Below are positions 2,150 through 55,133 of a DNA stretch of 64,000 nucleotides, piece by piece; positions within the stretch are counted from its first letter, which is position 1, and the number at the start of each line of letters is the position of its first letter. The stretch is taken from NCBI RefSeq assembly GCF_003330765.1, contig NZ_CP024904.1, forward strand, positions 372,001-436,000, written 5' to 3'. The notes below the pieces were generated by a model. It ran no database searches, was not told the origin of the DNA, and worked only from the letters and a program-made list of their open reading frames with translations. Source of the DNA: Burkholderia pyrrocinia. Its GTDB lineage: Bacteria; Pseudomonadota; Gammaproteobacteria; Burkholderiales; Burkholderiaceae. Position numbers and translations under genes: made by a program.

Positions 2150-2163
2150 GCACGCGCCGTGCC
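2150..2163 (-). promoter_or_regulatory. Possible sigma-54 promoter, leftward
   Basis: Reads GGCACGGCGCGTGC on the - strand: perfect GGCACG at -24, and GTGC instead of TTGC at -12. The predicted leader to the GTG at 2056 is about 80 bases. It is weaker than most in this window, but it lies 11 bases from the rightward promoter at 2175. Confidence 0.45.
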
Positions 2164-2174
2164 CGGTGCCGGCC

Positions 2175-2188
2175 GGCACGCGGCTTGC
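2175..2188 (+). promoter_or_regulatory. Sigma-54 promoter for the glucan/trehalose region
   Basis: GGCACGCGGCTTGC is an exact match to GGCAYG-N4-TTGC with GG and GC separated by 10 bases. The start point would be near 2200, about 185 bases before the gene at 2385, which is followed by glgE after 142 bases without another clear promoter. Confidence 0.7.
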
Positions 2189-2384
2189 GTCCTCCCTGAT
2201 TGCGCGTCGAACCGCTACCGGCACGCGCCGTGTGCACATGGGGCGCTTCCTCACCCGGCAATCGGACGGCGAACCGGGCACCGATGCCGTCCCTGTTTCG
2301 CCCCCGCGAACCGGCGAACCGGAATGCGCAGCGATCCGCCAGCCTGCGGATCGACCATCCCGACACTTCGCCAAGGAGTTTCGT

Positions 2385-2726
2385 GTGAACCAGACGACCG
2401 ACCTGCTCTCCTATCTCGTGACGAGCCAACTGGCCACGCGCATGCGGTCCGGCGCATGGCTCACGACCGGTCAGCTCGTCGGCGCGCAGCGCGCGTGGCT
2501 CGCGTGCCATCACGCCGAACGCAGCTGGCTCGCCCGGATCAGGATCGCGAACGCGTCCGCGACGATCGCGCAAGGAATCTACGACATCGCGGTCGCGAAC
2601 GGCGATCCCGACAACGGCGAACGCGTGCGGCTCGACGCGGATTCGCCGGAACTGCACGCGCTGCGCGCACGTTGCGATGCACTGTTGCAGCGCATCGACG
2701 GCGATCGGGACCTCGACCCGCAATGA
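2385..2726 (+). CDS. Hypothetical protein ahead of glgE
   Basis: 113-residue soluble protein that I do not recognise. The GTG start is chosen because AAGGAG lies six bases upstream; the longer upstream reading has no ribosome-binding site. The sequence is helical and polar, with two Trp residues (GAWL, RAWLACHHAE) and an acidic C-terminus. Its size and middle region suggest a phasin-like coiled helix, but this is only an impression. It is the first gene after the sigma-54 promoter at 2175 and may lead the glgE operon. Confidence 0.75.
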   Translation: MNQTTDLLSYLVTSQLATRMRSGAWLTTGQLVGAQRAWLACHHAERSWLARIRIANASATIAQGIYDIAVANGDPDNGERVRLDADSPELHALRARCDALLQRIDGDRDLDPQ

Positions 2727-2868
2727 GCGCGCGGAACCCCGATCGTGTAAAAACGACAGTCCCCGACCACCGGCATCCCGCCCAAGCCCCGTCGCACGGG
2801 AAACCGCGCCGCAGGCACGCGCGTTGCGGCGAAGCGCCGTCACCGATCGCCACCGCCCGCCCCGCGCC

Positions 2869-5800
2869 ATGGACTCCACGCCGACCTTCGCTCCGCACAT
2901 CTATTTCTGCGACGCCCGCCTCGTCGGGCCGCTCGACGCGTGGCCGCAGACGTTCGCGCGAATCGCGGGAATGGGCTTCGATCACGTGCTCGTCGGTGCA
3001 TTCTGGGCCGCGGGCGTCGCCGGCTTTCCGCGCCACGTGGCCGATTTTCGCCGGCCGGCCCAACCGTTCGCGACACGCGCGAGCGCGCTCGAGACGTTCT
3101 CGCGGCTCGCGCAGCTCGCGCACGGCCACGGGCTGCGCCTGCTGCTCGAAGTCGTGCCGGATCGCATCGCGCGCGAGAACCCGCTGCGCGCCGAGCATCC
3201 GGACTGGTACGTCGAGCGTACGCACGACGACGCGCTGATCGATCCGCGCGGCACCGCACACGCACTGGACGTCGCGCACGCGAACCTTGGCGACGAGGCG
3301 GCACGCGACGCGCTGTCGGCGTGGTGGTGCGCGCACCTCGCCACCTTCGCGGATGCGGGCGCGGCCGGCTTCCTGATCGACGCGCCGCATCATCTGCCGG
3401 CCGACTGGTGGCCCGGCTGGCGCGCGGCGCTGCGCCGCGCGCGCCCGGATGTCGCGGTGCTGGCCGCCGTGCCCGGCCATGCGCGCGACGCGCTCGCGCA
3501 GCTCGAAGCGGCCGGGTTCGACGCAGTGTTTTCATCGGTGCGCTGGTGGGACCTGCGCGCACCGTGGTTCGCCGACGAACACCGGCTGCTGCGGCGCATC
3601 GGCTCGCCGATCGCGTTTCCCGACGCGCTCGACGGCCCGCGCCTCGCCGACGACTGGCCCGACGCGCCGGACGATACCGTCGCACGCGCGTACCGCCGCG
3701 CGCTGTGGACGGCCGCGGCCGTCGGCACCGGCTGGCTCGTGCCGATGGGCTTCGAGCACGGCGTCGCGCTGCCGCTGATGGCGCGCGACGCGGACGCCGG
3801 GCGCTATCGCGCCGCATTCGAGCGCGCGCGCTTCGACCTGTCCGGCACGATCGCCGATGCGAACGCATGGCGCCGCGCGACGCCCGTAGCAGCCGCGCGC
3901 GGCGAAATCGCGCAACTGAGCGCGCCCGGCGCACCCGCAACGGTGCTGCTGCGCGGCACCGGGCCGTCGCTCGAACACGACGAAGCGGCACTGCTGATCG
4001 CGTTGAATCCCGATCTAGACGCGGCGGTGACGGTCGATCCCGCGACGATCCTGCCCGGCGTACCGGGCGGATTCACACGCGTCGTCACGCAGCATGGCGC
4101 GCAAACCCACCCGCCGGCCGCGCTCGAACCCTTCACGCTCGGGCCCGGCGCGTACGCGATGCTGCATGCGTGGCAGGCGCCGCCCGTCACGACGCTTCCC
4201 GACGATGCGCGCGAGCGCACGGCGCTGTCCGATGCACTCGTGGCCGACCGGATCGCGATCGAGCGCGTCGAGCCGTCGGTCGATGGCGGCCGCTTCGCGG
4301 TCAAGCGCGTGATCGGCGAACCGCTCGTTGTACGCGCATCGATCTTCTCGGACGGGCACGCGCATCTGGCGGCCGCGCTGCAGTGGCGCGCGGACGGCGA
4401 AGACGGCTGGCGCGAAGTGCCGTTCGAAGCCGAACCGAACGACCGCTGGCACGCGTGCGTCACGCTCGATCAGCTCGGCCGCCACGCCTTTCGCGTGATC
4501 GCGTGGCGCGACGACTGGGCGTCGCTGGTCGACGACGTCGCGAAGAAACACGCGGCCGGCCAGGACGTGACACTCGAACTGCGCGAAGCGCAGCTGCTGC
4601 TCGCGACCGCGCTCAAGCTCGCCGAGCCGGCCGATGCACGCGCGGTCGCGCAGATGGAACGCCTCGTCGCCGAGTTCAAGGACGCGCCGGCCGACGCCCG
4701 CCTCGCGCTGCTCGGCGCGGCGCCGCTCGCCGATGCGTTCGCGGCGCTGCGCTACCGCCCGTTCGTCACGCACGACGAAACCACCTACCCGGTCGACGTC
4801 GAGCGCCGCGCGGCGCGCTTCTCGAGCTGGTACGAGATGTTCCCGCGCTCGGCGAGCAACGATCCGCATCGGCACGGCACGTTCGACGACGTGATCGCGC
4901 AACTGCCGCGCATCCGCGACATGGGTTTCGACGTGCTGTATTTCCCGCCGATCCACCCGATCGGCATGGCCGCGCGCAAGGGCCGCAACAACAGCCTGAC
5001 AGCCGGCCCCGACGATGTCGGCAGCCCGTACGCGATCGGCTCGCCCGACGGCGGACACACGGCCGTGCATCCGCAGCTCGGCACGCTCGCGTCGTTCCGC
5101 ACGCTGGTCGATGCCGCGCGCGCGCACGGGCTCGAGATCGCGCTGGATTTCGCGATCCAGTGCTCGCCCGACCACCCGTGGCTCGCCGCGCATCCGGGCT
5201 GGTTCGCGTGGCGGCCCGACGGTTCGCTGCGCTTTGCGGAGAATCCGCCGAAGCGCTACCAGGACATCGTGAACCCCGATTTCTACGCGCCGGATGCACT
5301 GCCCGGCGTGTGGCTCGCGTTGCGTGACGCCGTGCTGTTCTGGGTCGACGCGGGCGTGCGGATCTTCCGCGTCGACAACCCGCACACGAAGCCGCTGCCG
5401 TTCTGGGCATGGATGATCGACGACGTGCGCGGCCGGCATCCGGACGTCGTGTTCCTGTCCGAAGCGTTTACGCGGCCGGGCATGATGTACCGGCTCGCGA
5501 AAATCGGTTTCTCGCAGTCGTACACGTACTTCACGTGGCGCGAGTCGAAGCGCGAATTCATCGATTACCTGACCGAGCTTGCGACCGGCCCCGCGCGCGA
5601 ATTCTTCCGGCCGAACTTCTTCGTCAACACGCCCGATATCAACCCGCGCCACCTGCAGAACGCGCCGCGCACGCAGTTCGTGATCCGCGCGGCGCTCGCG
5701 GCGACGCTGGCCGGTTCATGGGGCATGTACTCGGGCTTCGAGCTCGGCGAATCGGCGCCCCTGCCGAACAGCGAGGAATACGCGAACGCGGAGAAGTACG

Positions 5801-6257
5801 AACTGCGCGCGCGCGACTGGAGCCTCGCCGCGCACATCGGTACAGAAGTCGCGCGGCTGAACCGCGCACGGCGCGAGCACCCGGCGCTGCAGACGCACCT
5901 CGGCATCACGTTCGCCGACGCGGACAACGACATGGTGCTGGTGTTCGTCAAGGCCACACCTGCGTTCGACAGCGTGATCGTCGTCGCGATCAGCATCGAC
6001 CCGTGGCATCCGCAGGCCGCGAACTTCACGCTCGATTCAGCGCTGTGGCGCGGCTTCGGGCTCGTCGACGGCGAACCGCTCGATGCGCTCGAACAGGACG
6101 CCGCGCAAGCGGAAACGTGGCGCGGGCATCGCCAGTACGTGTCGCTCGATCCACATGTGCGGCCGTACGCAATCTGGCGGCTCGCGCCGTCTCCGGGCGC
6201 CGCGCGGGCGGCGGCGCCGATGTCGGACCACGCCCGATCCCCTTCGGGAGCCCACGC

Positions 6258-6261
<4 letters not shown>
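2869..6261 (+). CDS. glgE: Maltosyltransferase GlgE with an extra N-terminal GH13-like domain
   Basis: Transfers maltosyl units from alpha-maltose-1-phosphate to the non-reducing end of an alpha-1,4-glucan. 1130 residues, against about 660-700 for usual GlgE. Residues about 450-600 are the GlgE N-terminal (DUF3416) domain and about 640-1100 the GH13_3 catalytic domain, with nucleophile D836 (RIFRVDN), acid E865 (VFLSEAF) and D923 (NTPDINP). Residues 1-400 form a second barrel-like domain that keeps D171 (FLIDAPHH) but has Ala/Val where the acid should be (VLAAVPG, 197-203), so it is probably inactive. The ATG is placed at the first conserved residue; the ribosome-binding site is weak. The stop overlaps treS. 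Confidence 0.93.
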
Positions 6262-9670
<3,409 letters not shown>

Positions 9671-9674
<4 letters not shown>

Positions 9675-11878
9675 CCGATACGCTGTTCGAACGCGCCGAT
9701 ATCGATGCGCTGCTCGCCGGCCGCCATCCCGATCCGTTCGCATGCCTCGGCCCGCACGGGCAAGCCGACCGGATCGTCGTGCGCGCGCTGCTGCCCGGCG
9801 CCGAACGCGTGCGCGCGCTGTCGCCGGACGGCGACGAACTCGGCGCGCTCGCGTGCGTCGATCGCGCCGGCTGCTTCGCGGGAACGATCGCACGCAACGG
9901 CGATGTTTCCCGTTACCGGCTCGCGATCGACTGGCCTGACGCGCGGCAGGTGACCGACGACGCGTATGCGTTCGGCACGCTGCTCGACGACGCGGCGCTC
10001 GCGCGTTTCTCGGCCGGCGACCCGGCTGCCGTGCTCGACTGCCTCGGCGCGACGCCCGCGCGCATCGACGATATCGACGGCGTGCGTTTCGCGGTATGGG
10101 CGCCGAACGCGCAGCGCGTGTCGGTGGTCGGCAATTTCAACGCGTGGGACGGGCGCCGTCATCCGATGCGGCTGCGGCGGCCGTCGGGCGTGTGGGAGCT
10201 GTTCGTGCCGGGCATCGGCGCGGGCGAGCACTACAAGTACGAGCTGCGCGCGCCCGACGGGCGCGTGCTGCCGAACAAGGCCGATCCGTGTGCACGCGCG
10301 ACCGAAGCGCCGCCGCACACGGCGTCCGTCGTCGCCGACGTCGCGGCGCTCGACGCGTTCGCATGGCACGACCACGGCTGGATGCACGCGCGGCCGCACA
10401 CTGACCGCTACCGCGTGCCGTGGTCGATCTACGAGGTGCATGCGGAATCGTGGCAGCGCGTGCCCGAGGAGATGGACCGCAGCGCGACGTGGGACGAGCT
10501 TGCCGAGCGGCTGATTCCGTACGTGCAGGGGATGGGCTTCACGCACGTCGAGTTCATGCCGATCGCCGAATACCCGTTCGGCGGCTCGTGGGGCTACCAG
10601 CCGCTCGCGCAGTTCGCGCCGTCGGCGCGCTTCGGGCCGGTCGACGGCTTCGCGCGGTTCGTCGACCGCGCGCATGCGGCCGGCATCGGCGTGATCGTCG
10701 ACTGGGTGCCCGCGCACTTCCCGGACGACCCGCACGGCCTCGCGCAGTTCGACGGCAGCGCGCTGTACGAGCACGCCGATCCGCGAGAAGGCTTGCATCC
10801 CGACTGGCACACGTGCGTGTTCAACGTCGGGCGCACCGAAGTCGGCGCGTTCCTCGTCGCGTCGGCGCTCGCGTGGGCGCGCCGGTATCACGTCGACGGC
10901 ATCCGCGTCGATGCGGTCGCGTCGATGCTGTACCGCGACTATTCGCGCAAGGAAGGCGAATGGGTGCCGAACGTGCACGGCGGCCGCGAGAACCTCGAAT
11001 CGGTCGCGTTCCTGCGCCTGCTGAACGATACGATGCACGGTGCGGCCGCACCGGCCGGCGTCGTCACCGTCGCCGAGGAATCGACCGCGTGGCCGGGCGT
11101 CACCGCGCCGACCGGCGACGGCGGGCTCGGCTTCGACTTCAAGTGGAACATGGGATGGATGCACGACACGCTCGCGTATCTGCGCGAGGACCCCGTGCAC
11201 CGCCGCTATCACCACGACCGGATGACGTTCGGGCTCATCTATGCGTTCTCCGAGCGCTTCGTGCTGCCGCTGTCGCACGACGAGGTCGTGCACGGCAAGG
11301 GCTCGCTCGTCACGAAAATGCCGGGCGACGCATGGCAGAAGCTCGCGACGCTGCGCGCGTATTTCGGCTTCATGTGGGCGCACCCCGGCAAGAAGCTGCT
11401 GTTCATGGGCAACGAATTCGCGCAATGGGCCGAGTTCGCGCACGACGCGACGCCGCACTGGGACCTGCTCGACGCGCCCGCGCATCGCGGCGTGCAACGG
11501 CTCGTGCGCGACCTGAACCGCGCGTATGCGGCCGAACCGGCGCTGCATGCGCTCGACTGCCACGCGGCCGGCTTCGCCTGGCTGATCGGTGACGATCGCG
11601 ACAACAGCGTGTTCGCGTTCGCGCGCCGCGACGAGGCCGGGCACATGGTGGTCGCCGTCTGCAACTTCACGCCGGTGCCGCGCACCGGCTACCGCGTCGG
11701 CCTGCCCGCGCCCGGACCGTGGCGCGAATTGATGAACACCGATGCCGCATCGTACGGCGGCACCAACGCCGGCAACGACGGTACTGTGCAAGCCGAGGCC
11801 GTCCCCGCGCACGGCGAGGCGTGGTCGGCCACGCTGCGCCTGCCGCCGCTCGCCACGCTGTGGCTGAGCCCCGCCTGA
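9671..11878 (+). CDS. glgB: 1,4-alpha-glucan branching enzyme
   Basis: Cuts alpha-1,4 chains and re-attaches them through alpha-1,6 links. 735 residues, the normal GlgB length. Order: N1 module (1-110), CBM48 (about 120-215, NFNAWDG), GH13_9 barrel (about 250-600) and C-terminal beta domain. Catalytic residues are D414 (GIRVDAV), E469 (VAEES) and D537 ([13 protein letters not shown]). GGAGG lies six bases before the ATG, which overlaps the treS stop by four bases. Here it would branch the polymer made by GlgE. Confidence 0.97.
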
Positions 11879-11911
11879 TTTCCCGCGCCTTCGACACGGA
11901 GATTCGCCCCC

Positions 11912-14029
11912 ATGCCGACCGCCCTGCCTGCCCGTCTCGAATCCGGCCGCAGCTATCCGCTCGGCGCGACCTGGGACGGTCTCGGGACCAACTTCGCGGT
12001 GTTTTCCGCGCACGCGCAGCGCATCCAGCTCTGCGTGTTCGATCCGACCGGCCGCAAGGAACTCGCGCGCCTCGACCTGCCCGAGTGCACCGACGAGGTG
12101 TGGCACGGCTACCTGCCCAACGCGCATCCGGGCACCGTGTACGGGTTTCGCGCGGACGGCCCGTACCAGCCGCAGAACGGCCATCGCTTCAATCCGACCA
12201 AGCTGCTGCTCGACCCGTACGCGCGCAAGCTCGTCGGCCACTTCCGCTGGTCGGACGCGCTGTTCGGCTATCGCGTCCATTCGAACCGCGCGGACCTGTC
12301 GATGGACCGCCGCGACTCGGCGCCCGCGATGCCGAAGTGCGTGGTGGTCGACGAGGCGTTCGACTGGGGTAACGACCGGCGCCCGCGCGTGTCGTGGCGC
12401 AACACGGTGATCTACGAGACCCACGTGCGCGGCGCGTCGATGCGGCGCGCCGGGTTGCGCCCGCCCGAACGCGGCACCTTCTCGGCGTTCGCGCATCCGG
12501 CGTTCATCGATCATCTGCTGTCGATCGGCGTGACGACGGTCGAGCTGCTGCCCGTCCACGCGTTCCTGCAGCAGCGCGCGCTGGTGAACCGCGGGCTGCG
12601 CAACTACTGGGGCTACGACACGGCCGCGTTCTTCGCGCCGGAGCCCGCGTATCTCGCGACGCGGCGGCTCGACGAGATGCGCATCGCGATCCGCCAGCTT
12701 CATGCGGCCGGCATCGAGGTCGTGCTCGACGTCGTCTACAACCATACCTGCGAGGGCAACCAGCTCGGCCCGACGCTGTCGTGGCGTGGCCTCGACAACG
12801 CGAGCTACTACCGCCTCGTGCCGGGCGACCACCGCCTGCATGTCGACGAGACGGGCTGCGGCAACACGCTGAACCTGTCGCACCCGCGCGTCGTGCAGAT
12901 GGTGATGGATTCGCTGCGCTACTGGGCCAGCGCATTCAACGTCGACGGCTTCCGCTTCGATCTCGGCGTGACGCTCGGCCGCGAGGAGCACGGCTTCGAT
13001 CCCGGCGCGGGTTTTTTCGACGCGTTGCGGCAGGACCCGCTGCTCTCGCAACGCAAGCTGATCACCGAGCCGTGGGATCTCGGCCCCGGCGGCTACCAGC
13101 TCGGCCGTCACCCGCCCGGCTTCGCCGAATGGAACGACCGCTTTCGCGACACCGTGCGGTGTTTCTGGCGCGGCGACGCCGGCCAGCGGCCCGAGCTCGC
13201 CGCGCGGCTCGCGGGGTCGGCGGACCTGTTCAACCACCAGCGGCGCCATACGTGGGCATCGGTCAATTTCGTCACCGCGCACGACGGCTTCACGCTCGCC
13301 GATCTCGTGTCGTATGCGGCGAAACACAACGACGCGAACGGCGAGGACAACCACGACGGTCACGGCGGCAACTGCAGCGCGAACTGGGGCGTCGAAGGGC
13401 CGACCGACGATCCGGCGATCCGCGCCGTGCGCGCGCGCGTCGCGCGCTCGATGCTCGCGACGCTGTTCACCGCGCTCGGCACGCCGATGCTCGTCGCCGG
13501 CGACGAATTCGGCCGCACGCAGCACGGCAACAACAACGCGTACTGCCAGGATAACGAAATGTCGTGGCTCGACTGGGATCTGGCGCGCAGCGACGAAGCC
13601 GTGACGCTGATGCGCTTCGTGTCGCGGCTCGCCGCGCTGCGGCGCATGTATCCGGTGATGTCGGCGCCGCGCTATCCGTCGGGCGATCGCGACGGCGCGC
13701 CGGGAATGGCCGAGATCGGCTGGTTCGACGAGCGCGGCGATGCGCTGACCGTGCCCGCGTGGCAGGACCGCGAGCGCCGCGCGCTGACGATGCGGCGTGT
13801 CGGCACGGGCCGCACCGGCCGCACCGAGGCGCTGCTCGTGATACTGAACGCGTCGTCCGAGACGATCACTTTCGCGCCGCCCGCGCCCGTGCTCGATTAT
13901 CGCGTGCTGGTCGACTCGGCCACGCCGGACGCCGGCCCGCGCGCGTGGCCGGCCGACGGTCTCGAGGTCGCCGCGCACGCGGCCGCGATCGCGGTCGCGC
14001 CCGTGACGCCGCCCGGCCCGCCTTCGTGA
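11912..14029 (+). CDS. glgX: Glycogen debranching enzyme (isoamylase type)
   Basis: Hydrolyses alpha-1,6 branch points of limit dextrins. 705 residues: an N-terminal CBM48 (about 10-100, GTNFAVFSAHA) and a GH13_11 barrel with D350 (GFRFDLG), E386 (LITEPWDLG) and D458 (VTAHDGFTL). It begins 33 bases after glgB behind a weak CGGAG site, the only real gap between two enzymes in this operon. With TreY and TreZ next door it would supply linear maltodextrins for conversion to trehalose. Confidence 0.96.
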   Translation: MPTALPARLESGRSYPLGATWDGLGTNFAVFSAHAQRIQLCVFDPTGRKELARLDLPECTDEVWHGYLPNAHPGTVYGFRADGPYQPQNGHRFNPTKLLLDPYARKLVGHFRWSDALFGYRVHSNRADLSMDRRDSAPAMPKCVVVDEAFDWGNDRRPRVSWRNTVIYETHVRGASMRRAGLRPPERGTFSAFAHPAFIDHLLSIGVTTVELLPVHAFLQQRALVNRGLRNYWGYDTAAFFAPEPAYLATRRLDEMRIAIRQLHAAGIEVVLDVVYNHTCEGNQLGPTLSWRGLDNASYYRLVPGDHRLHVDETGCGNTLNLSHPRVVQMVMDSLRYWASAFNVDGFRFDLGVTLGREEHGFDPGAGFFDALRQDPLLSQRKLITEPWDLGPGGYQLGRHPPGFAEWNDRFRDTVRCFWRGDAGQRPELAARLAGSADLFNHQRRHTWASVNFVTAHDGFTLADLVSYAAKHNDANGEDNHDGHGGNCSANWGVEGPTDDPAIRAVRARVARSMLATLFTALGTPMLVAGDEFGRTQHGNNNAYCQDNEMSWLDWDLARSDEAVTLMRFVSRLAALRRMYPVMSAPRYPSGDRDGAPGMAEIGWFDERGDALTVPAWQDRERRALTMRRVGTGRTGRTEALLVILNASSETITFAPPAPVLDYRVLVDSATPDAGPRAWPADGLEVAAHAAAIAVAPVTPPGPPS

Positions 14030-14037
14030 GGATCGCC

Positions 14038-15909
14038 ATGACGTCAGGTTCCGCCCGTCCACCCGGCACGCACGCGTTCGAATCGTCGTTCGGCGCGACC
14101 TGCATCGATGCCGATCACACGCGCTTCCGGTTGTGGGCGCCCGCGAGCCGCACGGCCGCCGTCGAGCTGCACGACCAGCGCGACCACACGTTCGCGATGA
14201 CACCCGTCGGCGACGGCTGGTTCGAGGCGGTCGCGCCGTGCGGCCCCGGCACGCTGTATCGCTACCGGCTCGACGGCGAGCTCGCGGTGCCCGATCCCGC
14301 GTCGCGCTTCCAGCCTGCCAGCGTGCACGGCCCGAGCCAGGTCGTCGATCCGGCCGCGTATCGCTGGTGCCACGACGCGTGGCGCGGCCGCCCGTGGCAC
14401 GAGACGGTGCTGTACGAGTTGCACGTCGGCGCGTGCGGCGGCTACGCGAGCGTCGCGCGGCGCCTGCCGGCCATCGCCGCGCTCGGCGTGACCGCGATCG
14501 AGCTGATGCCCGTCAATGCGTTCCCCGGCGCGCGCAACTGGGGCTACGACGGCGTGCTGCCGTTCGCGCCCGACGCGTCGTACGGACGGCCCGAGGAACT
14601 GAAGGCGCTGGTCGATGCCGCGCACGGGCTCGGGCTGCAGGTGTTCCTCGACGTCGTCTACAACCACTTCGGCCCCGAAGGCAACCTGCTGCCGCGCTAC
14701 GCGCCCGCGTTCTTCCGCGCGGACCGGCAGACCGCGTGGGGGCCCGCGATCGACTTTTCGCGCGCGCAGACGAGTGCATTTTTCATCGGGAACGCGTTGT
14801 ACTGGCTCGACGAATACCGTTTCGACGGGTTGCGCATCGACGCCGCGCACGCGATCGACAACGACGCGTGGCTGCGCGAACTCGCGCGCCGCGTGCGCGC
14901 GTATGCGGGCGACGCGCGCCACGTGCACCTGGTGCTCGAGAACGAGCGCAATACGGCGAGCCTGCTCGGGCCCGGCGGCTTCGACGCACAGTGGAACGAC
15001 GACTTCCACAACAGCGCGCACGTGCTGCTGACCGGCGAGCGCGCCGGCTACTACCGCGCTTACGCCGATGCGCCGCTGCGCCATTTCGCGCGCACGCTCG
15101 GCGAAGGCTTCGCGTACCAGGGCGAACCGTCGCCGCTGCACGACGGCGCCGCGCGCGGCGAGCCGAGTGCGCACCTGCCGCCGACCGCGTTCGTCACGTT
15201 CCTGCAGAACCACGACCAGATCGGCAACCGCGCGTTCGGCGAACGGCTGCGCGCGCTCGCGAACGACGATGCGGTGCGCGCAGCCACCGCGCTGATGCTG
15301 CTCGCGCCGCCGATCCCGCTGCTGTTCATGGGCGAGGAAGACGGCAGCACGCAGCCGTTCCAGTTCTTCACCGACTATCGCGGCGCGCTCGCCGACGCCG
15401 TGCGCGAAGGCCGGCGCCGCGAATTCGCGGCGTTTCCCGCGTTCGCCGACGCCGTGCATCGCGCCGCGATTCCCGATCCGAACGACATCGCGACGTTCGT
15501 CCGCTCGTCGGCGAGCCACCCGGCCGACGACACCTGGCCCGACGCCGCCGCATGGCGACGCTTCTATCGCAGCGCGCTGACGGTTCGCGCAGCACTCGTG
15601 ACGCCGCACCTGGCCGGCGCGCGCGCGCTCGGCGTCGACCTGCTCGCGGGCGACGGCAATCCGCCGGCGCTCGTCGCGCGCTGGCGTCTCGGCGACGGCA
15701 GCACGCTGACGATCGCGCTGAACCTCGGTTCGCACGACGCGGCGCTGCCCGCGCTGCCGGTCGGCAAGATCGTGTTCGAGACGCCGCCGCGCGCGCGCGA
15801 CCGGCTGCCCGACCAGCGGCTGCCGCCACGGACCTGCATCGCGTGGCGCGACGGCGCAGTCAATCACGATGCGCTCAATCACCGCGCGAACGGGCGGAGG
15901 CGATCATGA
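14038..15909 (+). CDS. treZ: Malto-oligosyltrehalose trehalohydrolase
   Basis: Releases trehalose from the malto-oligosyltrehalose made by TreY. 623 residues: N-terminal beta sandwich (about 15-100, TRFRLWAPAS) and a GH13_10 barrel with D268 (GLRIDAAHAI), E301 (LVLENERN) and D393 (FLQNHDQIGNRA). GAGG of the ribosome-binding site overlaps the glgX stop, eight bases separating stop and start. The stop codon overlaps the malQ ATG. treZ and treY are split by malQ, which still allows coordinated production. Confidence 0.95.
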   Translation: MTSGSARPPGTHAFESSFGATCIDADHTRFRLWAPASRTAAVELHDQRDHTFAMTPVGDGWFEAVAPCGPGTLYRYRLDGELAVPDPASRFQPASVHGPSQVVDPAAYRWCHDAWRGRPWHETVLYELHVGACGGYASVARRLPAIAALGVTAIELMPVNAFPGARNWGYDGVLPFAPDASYGRPEELKALVDAAHGLGLQVFLDVVYNHFGPEGNLLPRYAPAFFRADRQTAWGPAIDFSRAQTSAFFIGNALYWLDEYRFDGLRIDAAHAIDNDAWLRELARRVRAYAGDARHVHLVLENERNTASLLGPGGFDAQWNDDFHNSAHVLLTGERAGYYRAYADAPLRHFARTLGEGFAYQGEPSPLHDGAARGEPSAHLPPTAFVTFLQNHDQIGNRAFGERLRALANDDAVRAATALMLLAPPIPLLFMGEEDGSTQPFQFFTDYRGALADAVREGRRREFAAFPAFADAVHRAAIPDPNDIATFVRSSASHPADDTWPDAAAWRRFYRSALTVRAALVTPHLAGARALGVDLLAGDGNPPALVARWRLGDGSTLTIALNLGSHDAALPALPVGKIVFETPPRARDRLPDQRLPPRTCIAWRDGAVNHDALNHRANGRRRS

Positions 15910-21329: not shown

Positions 21330-21343
21330 GCAATTTCGATGCC
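21330..21343 (-). promoter_or_regulatory. Sigma-54 promoter, leftward
   Basis: GGCATCGAAATTGC on the - strand: GG and GC are in register and TTGC is perfect. Start point near 21318, giving a leader of about 30 bases to the gene at 21288. Its partner at 21351 points the other way, seven bases apart. Confidence 0.65.
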
Positions 21344-21350: not shown

Positions 21351-21364
21351 GGCAAGCATGTTGC
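21351..21364 (+). promoter_or_regulatory. Sigma-54 promoter, rightward
   Basis: GGCAAGCATGTTGC: GG-N10-GC with perfect TTGC and one mismatch (A for C) in GGCACG. Start point near 21376, about 27 bases before the decarboxylase ATG. Confidence 0.6.
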
Positions 21365-22995: not shown

Positions 22996-23009
22996 GCAGG
23001 GACCATGCC
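22996..23009 (-). promoter_or_regulatory. Possible sigma-54 promoter, leftward
   Basis: GGCATGGTCCCTGC: good -24 element, CTGC instead of TTGC at -12. The leader to the gene at 22903 would be about 80 bases. Confidence 0.45.
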
Positions 23010-24088: not shown

Positions 24089-24102
24089 GCAATCCGCGTG
24101 CC
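24089..24102 (-). promoter_or_regulatory. Sigma-54 promoter of the pfpI operon
   Basis: GGCACGCGGATTGC on the - strand, an exact consensus match. Start point near 24077 and a leader of about 39 bases. Confidence 0.8.
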
Positions 24103-33415: not shown

Positions 33416-33716
33416 CGAAAGCCCTCCTGACGTTTCGGTTCGCGGTATTTCGTCTACAGGATTCATGCAGCTTTCGTGCCAGCCCGGCCAGGGGCGGCTC
33501 GTCACGGTTTTCGCGGATTCGTACCCCGTCGCACAGCCCGCCGGAGCCGCTTTTTTACAAGCCGGCGGCAAGTTTTGGGCATGCATTTCGCGCGTCAGAA
33601 AACGCACCCGCCCGCCTGCACCGTCCCCGCTTCGCATCGACGCGATCGACCGCCGAGCGATCAAGAAACGCCGTGGTCAGCGCCGGCAGATGGTGCAGCA
33701 GCCACGCGGCGTCGGT
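33416..33716. other. rpoN leader and spacer
   Basis: No gene is seen. It contains the candidate sigma-54 promoter at 33467-33480 and a CCGCCGG/CCGGCGG inverted repeat near 33538-33568 whose loop holds six Ts. Confidence 0.4.
33467..33480 (-). promoter_or_regulatory. Possible sigma-54 promoter of rpoN
   Basis: GGCACGAAAGCTGC: perfect GGCACG, GC in register, CTGC for TTGC. Start point near 33455 and a leader of about 40 bases to rpoN. Suggests autoregulation. Confidence 0.5.
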
Positions 33717-34429: not shown

Positions 34430-34443
34430 GCAATCTGCGTGCC
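34430..34443 (-). promoter_or_regulatory. Sigma-54 promoter, leftward
   Basis: GGCACGCAGATTGC, exact match. Start point near 34418, a leader of about 56 bases to the gene at 34362 and the lipoprotein behind it. Confidence 0.78.
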
Positions 34444-34949: not shown

Positions 34950-34963
34950 GCAAGTCGCGTGCC
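34950..34963 (-). promoter_or_regulatory. Sigma-54 promoter, leftward
   Basis: GGCACGCGACTTGC, exact match. Start point near 34938 and a leader of about 76 bases. Confidence 0.77.
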
Positions 34964-34976: not shown

Positions 34977-34990
34977 GGAACGGCCGTTGC
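34977..34990 (+). promoter_or_regulatory. Sigma-54 promoter, rightward
   Basis: GGAACGGCCGTTGC: perfect TTGC and GG-N10-GC, one mismatch in GGCACG. Start point near 35002, about 29 bases before the ATG at 35031. Confidence 0.6.
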
Positions 34991-35304: not shown

Positions 35305-35318
35305 GGCATGCGGTTTGC
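35305..35318 (+). promoter_or_regulatory. Sigma-54 promoter of the CBS/PRC operon
   Basis: GGCATGCGGTTTGC, exact match to GGCAYG-N4-TTGC. Start point near 35330, a leader of about 23 bases. The -24 element is half of an 8-bp inverted repeat, GCATGCCG-GA-CGGCATGC at 35294-35311. Confidence 0.78.
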
Positions 35319-39279: not shown

Positions 39280-39280
39280 C

Positions 39281-42914: not shown

Positions 42915-42928
42915 GCAAGGCGCGTGCC
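42915..42928 (-). promoter_or_regulatory. Sigma-54 promoter of the BON operon
   Basis: GGCACGCGCCTTGC, exact match. Start point near 42903 and a leader of about 40 bases to the TTG at 42863. Confidence 0.8.
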
Positions 42929-43179
42929 GCGGCGCCGGTGCCGTATGCGCCTGACTGACGCCGACCGGAAGTCCTTTCATCCAACGCGTTGTAATTTTTT
43001 CGGCGCACGGTTGCCGGGCATGACGATTGCCGGACGACGGGAAACGGGCGCGCATCGGCGTGGCCCCGACAGCGGACACCATGCAGGAAATCGCATCGAT
43101 CAGTGAATACGCATCGGCGCGGGCAAGGACATGCGCGCGGAATCCCCGGGCATGACGGCGCACGACGGCATGCGCAGCC

Positions 43180-45486
43180 TCAGCCGTCGCGCTTCGTCAC
43201 GTGCGCGATCTTGTGCGCCAGTTCGCGCACGTCGACGGGCTTGCACAGGTAGCCGTCGAACCCGGCTTCGAGCGCGCGGCGCTCGTCGGCAAGGCCCGCG
43301 TGCGCGGTTACGGCCAGCACACGCACGGCGGGCGAACCGCTGCCGCCGTTCATCGCACCGTGCCGCAGCGCGTCCAGCAGCCAGAAGCCGTCGCCGTCCG
43401 GCATCGCGAGATCGGACAGCACGACGGTCGGCCGCATGTCGGCGACCACCGCGAGCGCCTCCCTGCCCGACGACGCGATCGAGACGGCCGCGCCGAAGGT
43501 GGTCAGCGCGGCGGTCAGGCTCGCGCGCGTCGTCGCATCGTCGTCGACGATCAGGATGCGCTGCGTATCCAGCATGAGCGGCTCGCGATGGCCGGCCACC
43601 TGCGCGCCCCCCCAGGCCATCACGCCCATCGGCTGCCAGCCGGTCGGCAGCGTCACCGTAAAGGTCGCGCCGCGATTACGGCCCGCGCTCTCGACGGCGA
43701 CGCTGCCGCCGTGCAGTTCGACGATATGCCGCACGATCGACAGGCCGAGTCCGAGCCCGCGCCGCGACGATGCGGGCGAATCGTCCGCGCGGCGGAACAT
43801 GTCGAACACGAACGGCACGAACTCCGCCGCGACACCCTGCCCCGTGTCGGATACGGTCAGCACTACGCGCGCGTTGTCGCGCGCGAGCGCAACCGTCACG
43901 GCGCCGCCGCCCGGCGTGAACTTGAGCGCGTTCGACACGAGGTTCGACAGCATCTGCCTTAGCCGCTCGGCATCGCCCGACACGATGCAGGTGGCCACGG
44001 CGCAGTCGAACTCGAGCGTGATGCCGGCCGACGACGCCGCTGTCTGGAACGCGCCGACCGAATCGGAGAACAGCCGCACGACATCCACCGGCATCGCGTC
44101 GAGCTGCAGCTTGCCGGTCGCGAGCGACGATGCGTCGAGGATGTCGCCGACCATCCGCGTGAGCGAGCGCGCGCTGCGGTCGATCGCGTCGATCGCCTGC
44201 TGCTGCAGCGTGTTGTCGCCCGAATTGCGCAGCACCTCGATCCAGCCGTAGATCACGTTCAGCGGCGTACGCAGTTCGTGCGACACCGTCGCGAGCAGTT
44301 CGTCCTTCAGGCGATTCGACGTAGCGGCCCGGTCGCGCGCATTGCGCGCCCCTTGCAGCGAACGCTGCGCGCGCAGGTCGCGGCGGCGCTGTGCGCCGGC
44401 TTCGCGCAGCGTCAGCGACAGCGCGACACAAGCGCGCGCATCGCCGTGCACCGGACACGCCGCGACCGTCGCACGAAAGCGCCGGCCATCGCGTCGCACG
44501 CACAGCAGGTCGATCGGCCCGACCGCTTCGCGCATGTCGTCAAACGCTTCGAAGAACGGCCTGCGTTTCAGCCAGCGCATCGCAATCAGTGTTTCGAACG
44601 CACGCCCGCGCGCATCGCTTTCGTCATAGCCGAACATGCGCTGCGCGGCCGGGTTCCAACTGACGATTCGGCCGTCGGCGTCGATGCCGACGATCGCGTC
44701 CGGCGACGCGTCGACGACCGCGCGCTGCAGCCGCAACGCGTCGGCGCGCGCGCGATCCGGGCCCGCATCGCGCAGCAGCAGCACGGCCCCCGCGACATTG
44801 CCGTCGGCATCGCCGATCGGCGACGCGACCTCGACGATCGGCACCGGCTCGCCGCCGTCCGCATGCAGCCAGTGCCGATCGGACACTGTGCCGGCACCGC
44901 CGAGCGCCCGATCGAGCGGCGTCGCCTGCACACGGCGGCCGTCGCGGTCGAACACCCGCAGCACGTCGCGCGCGGCACGGCCTGTCGCATCGCCCGGCCT
45001 GCAGCCAACGAGCGCGGCCGCGGCCGCGTTCATGTACGTGAGCCGTCCGTTCGTGTCGGTTGCGATCACACCATGCGGCAGCGCCTGCAACACGGCCTCG
45101 AGCCGCCGATGCGCGGCCGCCTCTCGCCGGCGCGCGTCGTCGTTCGTGACTCGCGCGTGTCGCAGCATCGACGCGATCGCGCACACGAGCGCGCCGACCA
45201 GGACGAGCGTGCCAAGCCGGACGAGCCGTTCGGGCAGCGGCTCCGTGTAGGCGGCCGGATCGGACAGGAACAGCGTCCACGCCAGCATGCCGCTGACGAC
45301 GGTCGCGACCATCCCGAACAGGAACGAGGTGGCCCATGCGGTGCCTGCGAGCAGCGGGTAGTACAGGACGAACGGCAGGTTCACGCCACCGAAGCGGATC
45401 GCCAGCGCCTGCAGCACGGTCGCGATCGCGACCAGCATCACGGCCGTCGCGTAATTCCCGGCGTGTGTCCGCGAGAAATCAATCAT
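43180..45486 (-). CDS. Hybrid membrane histidine kinase with PAS domains
   Basis: 768 residues: four membrane helices in a DUF4118-like sensor (about 10-110), two PAS domains (about 127-240 and 250-370), HisKA with H403 (SHELRTPLN), HATPase (about 510-630, GLGLGLSIVRHIV) and a receiver domain (about 650-765, VVLSDLAMPDGDG). No Hpt domain is present. It lies 90 bases downstream of the sigma-54 response regulator on the same strand, which makes that protein its probable partner. Confidence 0.94.
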   Translation of the reverse strand: MIDFSRTHAGNYATAVMLVAIATVLQALAIRFGGVNLPFVLYYPLLAGTAWATSFLFGMVATVVSGMLAWTLFLSDPAAYTEPLPERLVRLGTLVLVGALVCAIASMLRHARVTNDDARRREAAAHRRLEAVLQALPHGVIATDTNGRLTYMNAAAAALVGCRPGDATGRAARDVLRVFDRDGRRVQATPLDRALGGAGTVSDRHWLHADGGEPVPIVEVASPIGDADGNVAGAVLLLRDAGPDRARADALRLQRAVVDASPDAIVGIDADGRIVSWNPAAQRMFGYDESDARGRAFETLIAMRWLKRRPFFEAFDDMREAVGPIDLLCVRRDGRRFRATVAACPVHGDARACVALSLTLREAGAQRRRDLRAQRSLQGARNARDRAATSNRLKDELLATVSHELRTPLNVIYGWIEVLRNSGDNTLQQQAIDAIDRSARSLTRMVGDILDASSLATGKLQLDAMPVDVVRLFSDSVGAFQTAASSAGITLEFDCAVATCIVSGDAERLRQMLSNLVSNALKFTPGGGAVTVALARDNARVVLTVSDTGQGVAAEFVPFVFDMFRRADDSPASSRRGLGLGLSIVRHIVELHGGSVAVESAGRNRGATFTVTLPTGWQPMGVMAWGGAQVAGHREPLMLDTQRILIVDDDATTRASLTAALTTFGAAVSIASSGREALAVVADMRPTVVLSDLAMPDGDGFWLLDALRHGAMNGGSGSPAVRVLAVTAHAGLADERRALEAGFDGYLCKPVDVRELAHKIAHVTKRDG

Positions 45487-45576: not shown

Positions 45577-46944
<1,368 letters not shown>

Positions 46945-47300: not shown

Positions 47301-48335
47301 ATGTCGAAATCCGTCGATGACGGCATGCGGCTGTCCGGCCGCTCGCGTTCGATCCAGACCCTGTTGCTGCAGGTGTCGCGCGTGGCCGCGACCGGCGTCG
47401 GCGTGCTGATCGTCGGCGAGAGCGGCGCCGGCAAGGACATCGTCGCGCGGCTGTTGCACGACATGAGCCCGCGGCGGCGCGGGCCGTTCGTCCCCGTCAA
47501 CTGCGGCGCGATCCCGCACGACATCGCGGAATCGCATCTGTTCGGTCACGAGAAAGGCAGCTTCACCGGCGCGATTGCCCAGCATGTGGGCCTGTTCGAG
47601 GCCGCGTGCGGCGGCACGCTGTTTCTCGACGAGATCGCCGAGATGCCGGCCGAGTTGCAGGTCAAGCTGCTGCGCACGCTCGAATCGAACACGATCGTGC
47701 GGGTCGGCGGCCACGAATCGATTCCGCTCGACATACGGATCGTCGCGGCCACGCATCACGATCCTGTCGAGGCCGTGCGCAGCGGGCGCCTGCGCGAAGA
47801 CCTGTTCTTCCGGATCGCGACGGTCGCGCTGCACGTTCCCGCGCTCAGGAAGCGCGGGGACGACGTCGGCGACATCGCGCTGCAGATCGTCGAGCGGTTG
47901 AATGCGCGGCACCGCACGCGCAAGCGGCTGTCGATGCAGGCCATGAAGGCGCTGCACGCGTACACGTGGCCCGGCAACGTGCGCGAACTACGCAATGCGC
48001 TCGAGCGCGCGTTCATCCTCGCGGACGAGCAGATCGAGCTGCAGTTGCCGCGCCGCCAGCCGCCGCGCGAGGAAGTGCGCCACAACGCGATGACGCTGCA
48101 TATCGGCACGACGCTCGCGCACACGCAGCAGCGCTTCATCTTCGCGTCGCTGCAGCATTTCAAGGGCGACAAGCCGCGCACCGCGAAGGCGCTCGGCATC
48201 AGCCTGAAGACGCTATACAACCGTCTCGCGTTGCTGCCCGAGCACGAGCGCGACGCGGCCAGCGCGGACGGCGCGCCGCCCCCGAACGCGACGAGCGCCG
48301 CCAACGCCGCCGCGCCGAACCTGCCGCATCACTGA
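47301..48335 (+). CDS. Sigma-54 activator lacking a receiver domain
   Basis: 344 residues: AAA+ domain (about 10-250) with Walker A GESGAGKD at 39-46, GSFTGA at 86-91 and Walker B TLFLDEI near 106, then a Fis-type HTH (KALGISLKTLYNRL) near 290-310 and a disordered Ala/Pro tail. With no sensory N-terminus it should be constitutively competent or be controlled by another protein, as in PspF/HrpR-type activators. Divergent from the NtrC-type gene; the ribosome-binding site is weak. Confidence 0.93.
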   Translation: MSKSVDDGMRLSGRSRSIQTLLLQVSRVAATGVGVLIVGESGAGKDIVARLLHDMSPRRRGPFVPVNCGAIPHDIAESHLFGHEKGSFTGAIAQHVGLFEAACGGTLFLDEIAEMPAELQVKLLRTLESNTIVRVGGHESIPLDIRIVAATHHDPVEAVRSGRLREDLFFRIATVALHVPALRKRGDDVGDIALQIVERLNARHRTRKRLSMQAMKALHAYTWPGNVRELRNALERAFILADEQIELQLPRRQPPREEVRHNAMTLHIGTTLAHTQQRFIFASLQHFKGDKPRTAKALGISLKTLYNRLALLPEHERDAASADGAPPPNATSAANAAAPNLPHH

Positions 48336-49386: not shown

Positions 49387-49400
49387 GCAAATCGCGTGCC
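49387..49400 (-). promoter_or_regulatory. Sigma-54 promoter, leftward
   Basis: GGCACGCGATTTGC, exact match. Start point near 49375, about 58 bases before the BON gene. A palindrome GGCCAGGG-CGC-CCCTGGCC at 49453-49471 lies about 87 bases upstream of the start point, where an activator could bind. Confidence 0.8.
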
Positions 49401-49958: not shown

Positions 49959-49972
49959 GCAAGCGGCATGCC
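49959..49972 (-). promoter_or_regulatory. Sigma-54 promoter, leftward
   Basis: GGCATGCCGCTTGC, exact match. Start point near 49947 and a leader of about 63 bases to the gene at 49884. Confidence 0.75.
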
Positions 49973-52903: not shown

Positions 52904-52982
52904 CGGCGATCGGTTCATCGGCGGGCATCGCACCGGTAGTCAGTCAGTCGTCCGCACAGCTCGCGTGCATCGCACGATGCGA

Positions 52983-53360
52983 TCACGCGTCGAAATCCAG
53001 GTCGCCGATCAGGATCTCGCGGTCGCGCTGGGTCCGTGTGCTGAAGTCGACCGGCAATTCCATCTGCCATCGTTCGATCGTGACCGGCAGCGCCGCGAGA
53101 TAGCGATCGAAGCGGCTGCGGTCGGGCTCGGCCAGCAGCGCGTCGATCGCGTCGTCGCGCCACGCGAGCCGCACGTTCAGCCGGTTCGACAGCCCGGGCG
53201 TCGACGTGAGGCCGATCACTTCGACGCAGGTCGGGCTGCCTTGCCCGTCGTGCGGCACGACGTCGACCTTCACTTCGCCAGGCCGGTACAAGCCGAGCAC
53301 GCGCGCCGCAATGTGCGGCGCGAACTCGGTTTCGAAACGTGCGCGGACGTCGGAATTCAT
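52983..53360 (-). CDS. Small conserved protein (DUF5594-like)
   Basis: 125-residue soluble protein beginning MNSDVRARFETEFAPHIAAR; beta strands in the middle (EVKVDVVPHDG, LNVRLAWRDDAIDALL) and an acidic end. I recall similar Burkholderia proteins as DUF5594, without certainty. TGGAGG precedes the ATG by four bases. It lies 37 bases behind the oxidoreductase gene and is probably its operon partner. Confidence 0.78.
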   Translation of the reverse strand: MNSDVRARFETEFAPHIAARVLGLYRPGEVKVDVVPHDGQGSPTCVEVIGLTSTPGLSNRLNVRLAWRDDAIDALLAEPDRSRFDRYLAALPVTIERWQMELPVDFSTRTQRDREILIGDLDFDA

Positions 53361-53397
53361 TTCGCCTCCAGGGTCGCATCGTGTGGTCAGGCCGCTG

Positions 53398-54927
53398 TCA
53401 CGCGGCTGCAATCTGCCGCTCCAATGCCGCTTCCGCCTTCAGGCTGTCGAGATCGCGACCGACCGTCGCGACCGCGAGCCGTACGTCGCCGCGCCAGTAC
53501 GCGATCGAACAATCGTGCGCGCCGAGGTCGCCGTCGATCTCGACGCGGTCCCATTGCTCCGCATGCCCGACATAGTTGATCGTCATGTCGTAATGCTGGC
53601 TCCAGAAGAACGGCACTGCGTCGAACGGCCGCTGCTGCCCGAGCATGTTGCGCGCCGCGACGATGCCCTGCCGCTCGGCGACGACCCAGTGCTCGACGCG
53701 AATGCGCTCGCCCGTCAGCGGATCGGGCCAGCGCGCGATGTCGCCGGCCGCGTAGATGCCGGGCGCACTCGTCTGCAGAAAGCGGTCGACGGTCACGCCG
53801 CGCTCGACGGCCAGCCCCGCGTCCTGCGCGAGCGCCACGTTCGGATGAACGCCGATGCCGACCACCACGAGGTCGGCCGGCAATACGTCGCCGGTCGATA
53901 GCGTCACGCTGTCCGGCGCGATCTGCGCGGGCGTCGCACCGAGATGGAACACGACGCCGTGCGACTCATGCAGCGCCTTGATCGTGTCGCCGAGCGCATC
54001 GCCGAGCACACGCGCCATCGGACGCGCTTCGGGTGCAACGACATGCACGTCGAGCCCGCGCGTGCGCAACGCAGCCGCCGCTTCGAGCCCGATGAAGCTC
54101 GTGCCGACCACGACGCAGCGGCGCGCGGTTTTCAGCTTGCCGATCAGCGCATCGCAATCGGCGCGCGAGCGAAGCACGCATACGTGCGGCAGATCCGCAC
54201 CGGGCACGGTCAGCCGGTTCGGCTCGGCGCCCGTTGCAAGCAGCAGCGCACCGTACCCGACGCGGCTGCCGTCGGCCAGTTCGACCGCATGCTGCGCGGG
54301 ATCGATCCGTGCGACACGCGTGTCGCACCGCACGTCGATGCGATGGTCGGTATAGAACGACGGCGCGCGCAGCGGCAGCCAGTCGGCCTCGGCCGTGCCC
54401 GCGAGATAGTCCTTCGACAGGTTCGGCCGGTCGTACGGCGGATCGCGATCGGCGCTCAGCAGCGTGACGGGATGCGGATAGCCTTCCTGCCGCAGCGTCA
54501 CGGCGGCCGCGATCGCAGCGGCGCCGCCGCCGACGATCACCACCGATGCGGGCAACCCGGCCGCATTCAGCACAGGCGGCGCGGCCGGCTGCGCATCGAG
54601 CACGACGGCGCGGCCGGCGCGGCGTTCGACGCGCCAGCACGGCAGCCCGTCGAGCGCCGGCGCGCGCAGCAATCCGCCCGTGCGCAGGCAGAACGCCGCG
54701 TGGTGCCACGGGCAGCGGATCGTGTCGCCGACCAGCAGGCCGTCGGCCAGCGGCGCACCGTAGTGCGGGCATTGTGCGCCCACGGCAAACAGTTCGTCGG
54801 CGCGGCGGATGAGCAGCACCGCTGCGTCGCCGACATGGCCCTCGATCATCGCGCCGTCGGCGAGATCGTCGAGCGCGATGCCCTGCGCGAGATCGGGGCG
54901 TGAAGACGAGGAATCGCTTCCGGACAT
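53398..54927 (-). CDS. Rieske-domain FAD/NAD oxidoreductase (AIF-like)
   Basis: 509 residues. An N-terminal Rieske [2Fe-2S] domain (about 15-110) has C53-x-H55 and C72-x2-H75. A pyridine-nucleotide:disulfide-type flavoprotein follows: FAD motif IVGGGAAA near 125, NAD motif VVGTSFIGLEAA near 275, and FAD-binding GIYAAGDIA. A reductase C-terminal domain ends it. Likely passes electrons from NAD(P)H to an unknown ferredoxin or quinone. GGGAGCG precedes the ATG. An exact sigma-54 promoter lies about 190 bases upstream. Confidence 0.92.
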   Translation of the reverse strand: MSGSDSSSSRPDLAQGIALDDLADGAMIEGHVGDAAVLLIRRADELFAVGAQCPHYGAPLADGLLVGDTIRCPWHHAAFCLRTGGLLRAPALDGLPCWRVERRAGRAVVLDAQPAAPPVLNAAGLPASVVIVGGGAAAIAAAVTLRQEGYPHPVTLLSADRDPPYDRPNLSKDYLAGTAEADWLPLRAPSFYTDHRIDVRCDTRVARIDPAQHAVELADGSRVGYGALLLATGAEPNRLTVPGADLPHVCVLRSRADCDALIGKLKTARRCVVVGTSFIGLEAAAALRTRGLDVHVVAPEARPMARVLGDALGDTIKALHESHGVVFHLGATPAQIAPDSVTLSTGDVLPADLVVVGIGVHPNVALAQDAGLAVERGVTVDRFLQTSAPGIYAAGDIARWPDPLTGERIRVEHWVVAERQGIVAARNMLGQQRPFDAVPFFWSQHYDMTINYVGHAEQWDRVEIDGDLGAHDCSIAYWRGDVRLAVATVGRDLDSLKAEAALERQIAAA

Positions 54928-55119
54928 GACGTCGCTCCCTGAGAGTCGGGTAACGATCCCATTATCGGCGTCCTTCATGAAAAGAACAGGTACAGACGAC
55001 CCCGCAGCGCACGCAAACACCGACTGTAGCTTGTACGCGGTCCATGACCGGCGTAGAACGTCATCAACGTTGCGGCGCAGCACACCGCTGCCATCCGCGA
55101 AGGTTTCCGCACGGCCCGC

Positions 55120-55133
55120 GCAATCCGCGTGCC
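55120..55133 (-). promoter_or_regulatory. Sigma-54 promoter, leftward
   Basis: GGCACGCGGATTGC, exact match, identical to the pfpI promoter. Start point near 55108; the leader to the oxidoreductase ATG would be about 180 bases, longer than for other genes here. Confidence 0.7.

Follow-up and report, generated by a model that had tools for sequence, protein, structure and literature searches.

A cluster of -24/-12 sites around a second rpoN gene of Burkholderia pyrrocinia points to a sigma-54-dependent stress and storage regulon

What is the second sigma-54 factor of the Burkholderiaceae for? The second rpoN gene of this family has long been known, with few known targets, and the locus described here suggests a role for it. 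The window analysed (64,000 bp of Burkholderia pyrrocinia DNA, bases 372001-436000 of the 985-kb contig 3 in a genome of 8.0 Mb and three contigs, C1, C2 and C3) encodes such a factor, here named RpoN2 as in Ralstonia and B. pseudomallei, amid a cluster of matches to the -24/-12 promoter element of sigma-54. We argue that the region is probably a sigma-54-dependent regulon of stress and storage genes, with its own RpoN2 and its own activators of the NtrC family.

The exact sigma-54 pattern, GGCAYG-N4-TTGC, occurs 13 times in the window, whereas dinucleotide shuffles (n = 100) gave a mean of 0.63 and a maximum of three matches. The whole genome holds 112 matches (C1 32, C2 48, C3 32) and 51 matches to the reversed pattern that served as a control, eight of the latter on contig 3. 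In a scan of 64-kb frames starting at each site, the 13 matches of the window compare with about 0.8 expected and with seven in the densest non-overlapping frame, on C2; the Poisson P of this enrichment is about 5e-10 after multiplication by 125 windows. The site cluster is real. An earlier sequence-only reading, which had proposed such a genome-wide density comparison, listed eleven exact sites, and all of them were found at the coordinates and on the strands that it gave; its "at least eleven" overlooked 2814(+) and 43017(+), and its chance expectation of 0.25 was of the right order of magnitude but low. It had also placed nearly all of the sites a short way ahead of start codons, which is mostly right: in 10 of the 13 the GGC is 45-101 bp from a start codon. 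Of the other three, 43017 is followed by no gene, and the called start lies about 206 bp away for 55120 and 210 bp away for 2175. The exact sites are as follows.

2175..2188, plus strand: exact site GGCACGCGGCTTGC, with the called start of a small protein (GTG 2385) 210 bp downstream; a weaker member of the set
2814..2827, plus strand: exact site, 55 bp before the glgE start at 2869
24089..24102, minus strand: exact site, with a DJ-1/PfpI gene (23490-24041) 61 bp downstream
24607..24620, minus strand: exact site, 64 bp before the gene of a small protein (24191-24556; DUF3022 below cut-off)
24663..24676, plus strand: exact site, 64 bp before a DUF3175 gene (24727-25083)
34430..34443, minus strand: exact site; a small protein starts 81 bp downstream, at 34362
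34950..34963, minus strand: exact site; a small protein starts 101 bp downstream, at 34862; site found in 11 of 16 orthologs
35305..35318, plus strand: exact site, 45 bp before a CBS-domain gene (35350-35784)
42915..42928, minus strand: exact site, 65 bp before a BON-domain gene (42459-42863)
43017..43030, plus strand: exact site, no gene behind it in this strain
49387..49400, minus strand: exact site, 83 bp ahead of a gene with a BON domain (48472-49317); shared with the B. multivorans record
49959..49972, minus strand: exact site, 88 bp ahead of a gene (49519-49884) for a small acidic protein; shared with the B. multivorans record
55120..55133, minus strand: exact match, doubtful, about 206 bp before a Rieske/FAD oxidoreductase gene

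The six close variants named by the same reading are present as well. The best of them, 33467(-), is conserved before rpoN2, and 34977(+) has an exact site in its place in eight of 20 orthologs; 2150(-) exists but is weak, because its -12 element reads GTGC. The other variants, and one element close to them, are listed with these two.

21330..21343, minus strand: variant site GGCATCGAAATTGC, before a small protein (21043-21288); aligned in relatives, exact in none of 11 orthologs
21351..21364, plus strand: variant site GGCAAGCATGTTGC, ahead of a gene (21397) of the phosphatidylserine-decarboxylase family (Pfam); aligned in relatives, exact in none of 11 orthologs
22996..23009, minus strand: variant site GGCATGGTCCCTGC, before a small protein (22676-22903); exact in one of 15 orthologs
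near 23099: element TTGAAAACTTTGCA, about 90 bp further upstream of the variant site at 22996
33467..33480, minus strand: TGGCACG-AAAG-CTGC, before rpoN2
34977..34990, plus strand: variant site, before a small protein (35031)

Are these sites kept in other genomes? Conservation was followed in the 40-kb stretches that surround RpoN2 in 20 further Burkholderia genomes, picked by hand (ten distant, ten near) out of 54 with RpoN2, and in the 260 bp upstream of orthologs in 24 comparison genomes, namely these 20 and four plasmid records. The 40-kb stretches contain 134 sites, from one (G055) to 11 (G002) per genome, against four matches to the reversed pattern and about nine expected from the genome totals. 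Exact sites precede 15 of 17 orthologs of the DUF3175 gene, 15 of 16 of the CBS gene, 14 of 15 of the BON gene and eight of 14 of the DJ-1 gene, while the reversed control gave none for any gene. In the displayed part of the intergenic alignments the motif stays constant and the flanks and spacing drift; GG at -24 and GC at -12, at fixed spacing and ahead of a start codon, are conserved for most sites, not for all. The 2814 site has an exact counterpart 61 bp before the glgE-like gene of B. multivorans and is aligned in four sequences, with no exact site in the compared B. pyrrocinia stretch that holds glgE. The 24607 site is present in the aligned intergenic region, and four of 16 orthologs of its gene have a site, at other distances. 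Several relatives carry the 34430 site in the matching place, where it probably precedes an extra small gene.

These counts make chance or GC composition a highly improbable source of the cluster. The pattern is GC-rich, its reversed form is far from absent from the genome, and 17 of the 30 contig-1 matches checked fall within called genes; the shuffles, the ratio of 134 to four near RpoN2, and the ortholog and density counts all contradict such an origin.

The site at 43017 illustrates how a promoter may lose its gene. In eight relatives (G063, G026, G041, G012, G039, G064, B. multivorans and B. cenocepacia) the corresponding site has a glycosyltransferase gene about 70 bp downstream. A site of this type without such a gene is found in G033, B. 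stagnalis has part of the gene without that site, and the stretch of G002 is uninformative, as it ends about 110 bp past its site. The glycosyltransferase gene was probably lost in the present strain and its putative promoter left behind.

The sigma factor and the candidate regulators encoded in the island are these.

31982..33415, minus strand: rpoN2, second sigma-54, 477 aa, RpoN box ARRTVTKYRQ
43180..45486, minus strand: hybrid histidine kinase with DUF4118, two PAS, HisKA, HATPase and receiver domains (Pfam)
45577..46944, minus strand: NtrC-like response regulator with a receiver, an AAA+ sigma-54 interaction domain and a Fis-type helix-turn-helix (HTH) (Pfam)
47301..48335, plus strand: receiver-less AAA+ sigma-54 activator with a Fis-type HTH (Pfam)

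The rpoN2 product has the Pfam domains AID, CBD and DBD of the sigma-54 family, all over cut-off, and is 44% identical to RpoN1, the genome's own factor on contig 1. The rpoN gene that the sequence-only reading saw inside the island is indeed there, but it is a second, divergent sigma-54 and not the one common to all 65 Burkholderia genomes: RpoN2 occurs in 54 of the 65 (65-100% identity), the other rpoN (42-46% identical) in every one. Across the family, 125 of 249 sampled genomes have an RpoN2 match at E <= 1e-115; outside the genus such matches are 52-66% identical to RpoN2, compared with the 42-46% between RpoN2 and RpoN1 (pairwise identities). A shared -24/-12 site and shared neighbour genes also fit a common RpoN2 class, which these matches may form across genera. 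The box ARRTVTKYRQ is found in 54 of 54 RpoN2 hits from Burkholderia loci, some of them from the same genomes, and departs from that of RpoN1, ARRTVAKYRE, which is the canonical form. A wider set of named rpoN2 loci was formed by the best 80 of the 175 found: 27 from Burkholderia, which are not independent of the 20-genome set because many are the same genomes, and 53 from outside the Burkholderia group (Paraburkholderia, Caballeronia and eight "Burkholderia sp." records), with RpoN2 57-63% identical. In those 53 loci and 24 loci of other genera the last residue of the box is H, R, N, Q or G, never E; the 53 read ARRTVAKYRH 51 times, ARRTVTKYRR once and ARRTVAKYRR once. The changed box is a divergence inside the sigma-54 family and no ground for excluding RpoN2 from it.

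The gene itself is preceded by a site. Of the 80 named loci, 78 have a relaxed -24/-12 match (mostly TGGYAYG-N4-YTGC) 57-98 bp ahead of rpoN2, namely all 27 from Burkholderia and 51 of the 53 others, so that it occurs in Burkholderia, Paraburkholderia and Caballeronia; the reversed pattern gave none in 80, and random 160-bp windows 90 in 1600. The base before GG is T in all 78 sites, and the exact pattern is met in only two of 23 orthologs. The best reading of these data is that rpoN2 would itself be under sigma-54 control.

Sigma-54 polymerase is silent without an AAA+ activator. Both candidate activators of the island combine the AAA+ domain and Fis-type HTH of the NtrC type with a GAFTGA-like loop, read from the sequence as GSFTGA in each. 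The NtrC-like regulator (cut-off 1e-150) and RpoN2 have identical distributions among the 65 Burkholderia genomes: 54 carry both and 11 carry neither, though one of these 11, G057, is no more than 82% complete. The hybrid kinase adjoins the regulator. In other genera a regulator about 58-63% identical, a candidate ortholog, lies within about 10 kb of RpoN2 in some genomes (for example G209, G131, G087 and G154) and on another contig than RpoN2 in others (G134, G083). The receiver-less activator has a 63%-identical relative on contig 2. Around this relative (G000:C2:1536924-1543918, L186) we noticed by eye an apparent copied mini-island, with look-alikes of the small genes, CBS, PRC-barrel, DUF4142, the kinase and the receiver-less activator, and with no rpoN called. 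It carries three exact sigma-54 sites, which supports the proposed regulon.

Taken together, the genome-wide density, the conservation of sites before orthologs and the co-occurrence of RpoN2 with the NtrC-like regulator support the earlier suggestion that the island is a regulon which includes rpoN and two activators. The kinase, the regulator and RpoN2 would form one pathway, in which the hybrid kinase would sense a signal and pass it to the NtrC-like regulator, probably assisted by the receiver-less activator. The regulator and sigma-54 polymerase, with RpoN2 as the presumed main reader of the island, would then open the -24/-12 promoters before glgE-treS-glgBX-treZ-malQ-treY (trehalose and alpha-glucan) and before the BON, CBS, DJ-1, DUF3175 and small stress-type genes, as well as that of rpoN2 itself. 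On this reading the sites would be active promoters. They are bunched at 24.1-24.7 kb, 34.4-35.3 kb and 42.9-43.0 kb, and one enhancer could therefore serve several promoters. By gene content, which is of the stress and storage type, the island may be a general stress regulon.

How far does the island reach beyond the Burkholderia group? In the 53 outside loci, relatives of the island genes were sought up to 10 kb from RpoN2, and the relaxed pattern within 260 bp of them (whole windows only). Relatives were found for BON (50 loci), DUF1488 (44), DUF4142 (39), the gene at 40442-41011 (39), DJ-1 (33), PRC-barrel (30) and DUF3175 (25). Besides rpoN2, relaxed sites precede 47 of 50 BON relatives, which average only 41% identity, and 27 of 33 DJ-1 relatives; one other small protein has a site in three of 13, four genes have a site in a minority of loci (counts below), and the rest have none. 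The control was zero, except for one of 39 at the gene at 40442-41011. Since most island genes lack a site outside the group, membership changes between genera; what is kept across genera is a core of rpoN2, BON and DJ-1 with putative promoters, and the other membership has shifted. Paraburkholderia xenovorans LB400 (L264) is one of the strains with an rpoN2 gene in which all three core genes are preceded by relaxed sites.

Whether RpoN2 is the factor that reads these promoters is a separate question. It is possible, if doubtful, that the island is a sigma-54 regulon read by RpoN1, with RpoN2 a minor or redundant copy located there by chance. The core motif of the sites is canonical, and RpoN1 could read all of the island promoters. 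Two published studies point the same way. RpoN2 of B. pseudomallei largely replaces Escherichia coli RpoN, since an rpoN mutant of E. coli that receives it can use most of the nitrogen sources tried, so that the two are partly interchangeable and their specificities overlap (PMC4745423); in Ralstonia solanacearum, an rpoN2 mutant had no specific phenotype (PMC4371752). Burkholderia genomes that lack RpoN2 speak against it. The DUF3175 gene is kept in four of the 11. One of these copies is truncated where its contig stops; the other three loci (3.3 kb each) have no exact site, as against 15 of 17 comparison orthologs that have one, a contrast that is uncorrected for kinship. One of the three (L228), for which the displayed part leaves out the stretch next to the gene, has relaxed matches only. 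Ten of the 11 average 63 sites per genome compared with 86 in the 20 RpoN2 genomes, with slightly different genome sizes, and the distribution that RpoN2 shares with the regulator in Burkholderia also counts against this reading. DJ-1 was found in none of the 11, in a search that recovered the positive control G026 and also gave no match in the RpoN2-positive G017; glgE was likewise found in none, in a search without a positive control.

The general stress response is run by RpoS or extracytoplasmic function (ECF) sigma factors in most bacteria. A more elaborate arrangement for the island is a two-step relay, in which RpoN1 would read the TGG promoter that makes RpoN2, and RpoN2, with its changed box, would read mostly CGG island promoters for a general stress response. 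We hold this idea only tentatively. In its favour, the base before GG is C in 100 and T in nine of 127 sites of the 27 Burkholderia loci. Against it, C occupies this position in only 12 of 31 sites of six distant Burkholderia genomes whose RpoN2 has an identical box, and no base is preferred in the 53 outside loci (22 C, 19 T, 26 G, 17 A). The contig-1 sites that are closely followed by a called gene start number eight (T 4, C 3, G 1), too few to decide. A co-evolution of this promoter base with the RpoN box, suggestive in the 27 loci, is unsupported in the six distant genomes and outside the group, and was set aside.

The stress genes may also be transcribed mainly by RpoS or sigma-70, the sigma-54 sites being a secondary input or unused relics; we regard this as unlikely. 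Gene sets for trehalose, Ku/LigD and small stress proteins are run by RpoS in Pseudomonas, and the orphan site at 43017 shows that a site can outlast its gene. Moreover, B. pseudomallei KatE was earlier reported as possibly RpoS-controlled (PMC4745423). Unused sites should, however, decay, and many here persist while the flanking DNA diverges, those before rpoN2, BON and DJ-1 even across genera.

Several observations weigh against a regulon driven by RpoN2, or against single members of it. Sites are kept upstream of only three of seven orthologs for 2175, three of seven for 49387 and two of six for 49959; none of 15 orthologs has an exact site within 260 bp for 34430; and the match at 55120 recurs in none of three orthologs, with two core columns varying in a six-sequence alignment. 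Some genomes have few sites near RpoN2 (G055 one, G048 two). Outside the group, no site precedes DUF3175 (0/25), the antiporter (0/18) or the gene at 40442-41011 (0/39), and few precede DUF1488 (1/44), PRC-barrel (2/30), the small acidic protein (2/25) and DUF4142 (9/38). The regulator also occurs without RpoN2, with a match in 160 of the 249 family genomes as against 125 for RpoN2, and is present in only 10 of the 53 outside loci. The genome has two catalase matches; upstream of the C3 one, the only one examined for a katE-type promoter, no convincing site was seen. Nor did a common enhancer emerge: among dyads in the 220-bp stretches ahead of 18 sites the sigma-54 site came out on top, weaker dyads such as AGGA-N8-CGGC preceded five of the 18, and a multi-genome dyad search, in which orthologous copies swamped the signal, yielded no enhancer. 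Conserved blocks such as TTGAAAWCTTTGCA and CTGCAATCGCGTTGCAG precede only a few promoters. YTGYAAW, picked by eye, was rejected as an enhancer: it stands before only five of 18 sites (controls: 2.6% of random stretches, one of 19 other contig-3 sites and none of 30 contig-1 sites), and A-rich patterns (four were tried, including this one) are not relied on because they were chosen after looking.

On some neighbours, too, the earlier reading needs correcting. Besides the 55120 match, which is not conserved in exact form, and the geneless 43017, there are several genes (Ku, LigD, the antiporter, LysR and MFS) for which neither the window nor the upstream regions of the orthologs examined contain an exact site. 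Transcription from rpoN2 may extend into Ku and LigD, that from the DUF3175 gene into the antiporter gene, and that from BON into DUF4142 and others, in each case on the same strand. LigD and Ku, a non-homologous end-joining pair at 26454-30266, lie inside the island, downstream of rpoN2. A Dyp-type peroxidase and encapsulin shell pair (Pfam) at 60471-62325 likewise has no exact sigma-54 site. The region also holds the following operon.

2869..20890, plus strand: glycogen/trehalose operon with a glgE-like maltosyltransferase, treS, glgB, glgX, treZ, malQ and treY

The gene names are taken from annotated relatives; the glgE-like gene has GlgE domains by Pfam, and the gene order is the same in B. 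multivorans and B. pyrrocinia. An ARAGORN tRNA-Val call at 17796-17894, on the minus strand inside the malQ-like gene, is probably spurious. Elsewhere in the genome, four more exact sigma-54 sites lie within 14 kb of the same replicon (G000:C3:61160-75174; similar sites in G002), and three lie within 7 kb on contig 2 (G000:C2:1596106-1603307).

For the second rpoN the island supplies a list of candidate promoters, a candidate activator of the same Burkholderia distribution and members in other genera. If the interpretation is right, a soil- and host-associated lineage entrusts part of its stress and storage programme to an ATP-activated sigma-54 and does not rely on RpoS alone. No description of such an island was found among the first-listed titles and abstract openings of the literature searched, with most subscription journals outside its scope; no mention of a second rpoN was found in PMC5979394, and the available main text of the B. 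cenocepacia start-site paper reports no sigma-specific motifs.

Pseudomonas has RpoS-controlled stress regions of similar content (trehalose/glycogen, Ku/LigD, small stress proteins), under another sigma factor and promoter type. Sigma-54 paralogues are likewise duplicated in Rhodobacter sphaeroides and Bradyrhizobium, in duplications separate from that of RpoN2; to our knowledge their targets are not an adjacent stress island. One-base promoter differences have been reported for them (cited in PMC3162934, as far as its available part goes). B. pseudomallei RpoN2, likened here by description, likewise comes from an additional rpoN gene on a secondary chromosome, and katE depends on it for expression in the late growth phase (PMC4745423); the single catalase gene examined here showed no convincing katE-like site. 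The available part of that study covers one target gene in detail and a partial proteome, with no island, activator or promoter set described. R. solanacearum RpoN2, again likened by description and probably of the same class, is a second, divergent sigma-54 on a secondary replicon; its gene has a -24/-12 site, TGGCACAGCCTTTGCA, 63 bp upstream that resembles the site here, its expression is abolished in an rpoN1 mutant, and its role was termed enigmatic by the authors, who assigned no phenotype to it (PMC4371752). In contrast to the available part of that account, a conserved cluster of candidate target promoters surrounds rpoN2 in the present locus. A sigma-54 paralogue and a sigma-54 regulon are known kinds of element; it is their content and arrangement that are unexpected here, in a feature that is real and largely conserved.

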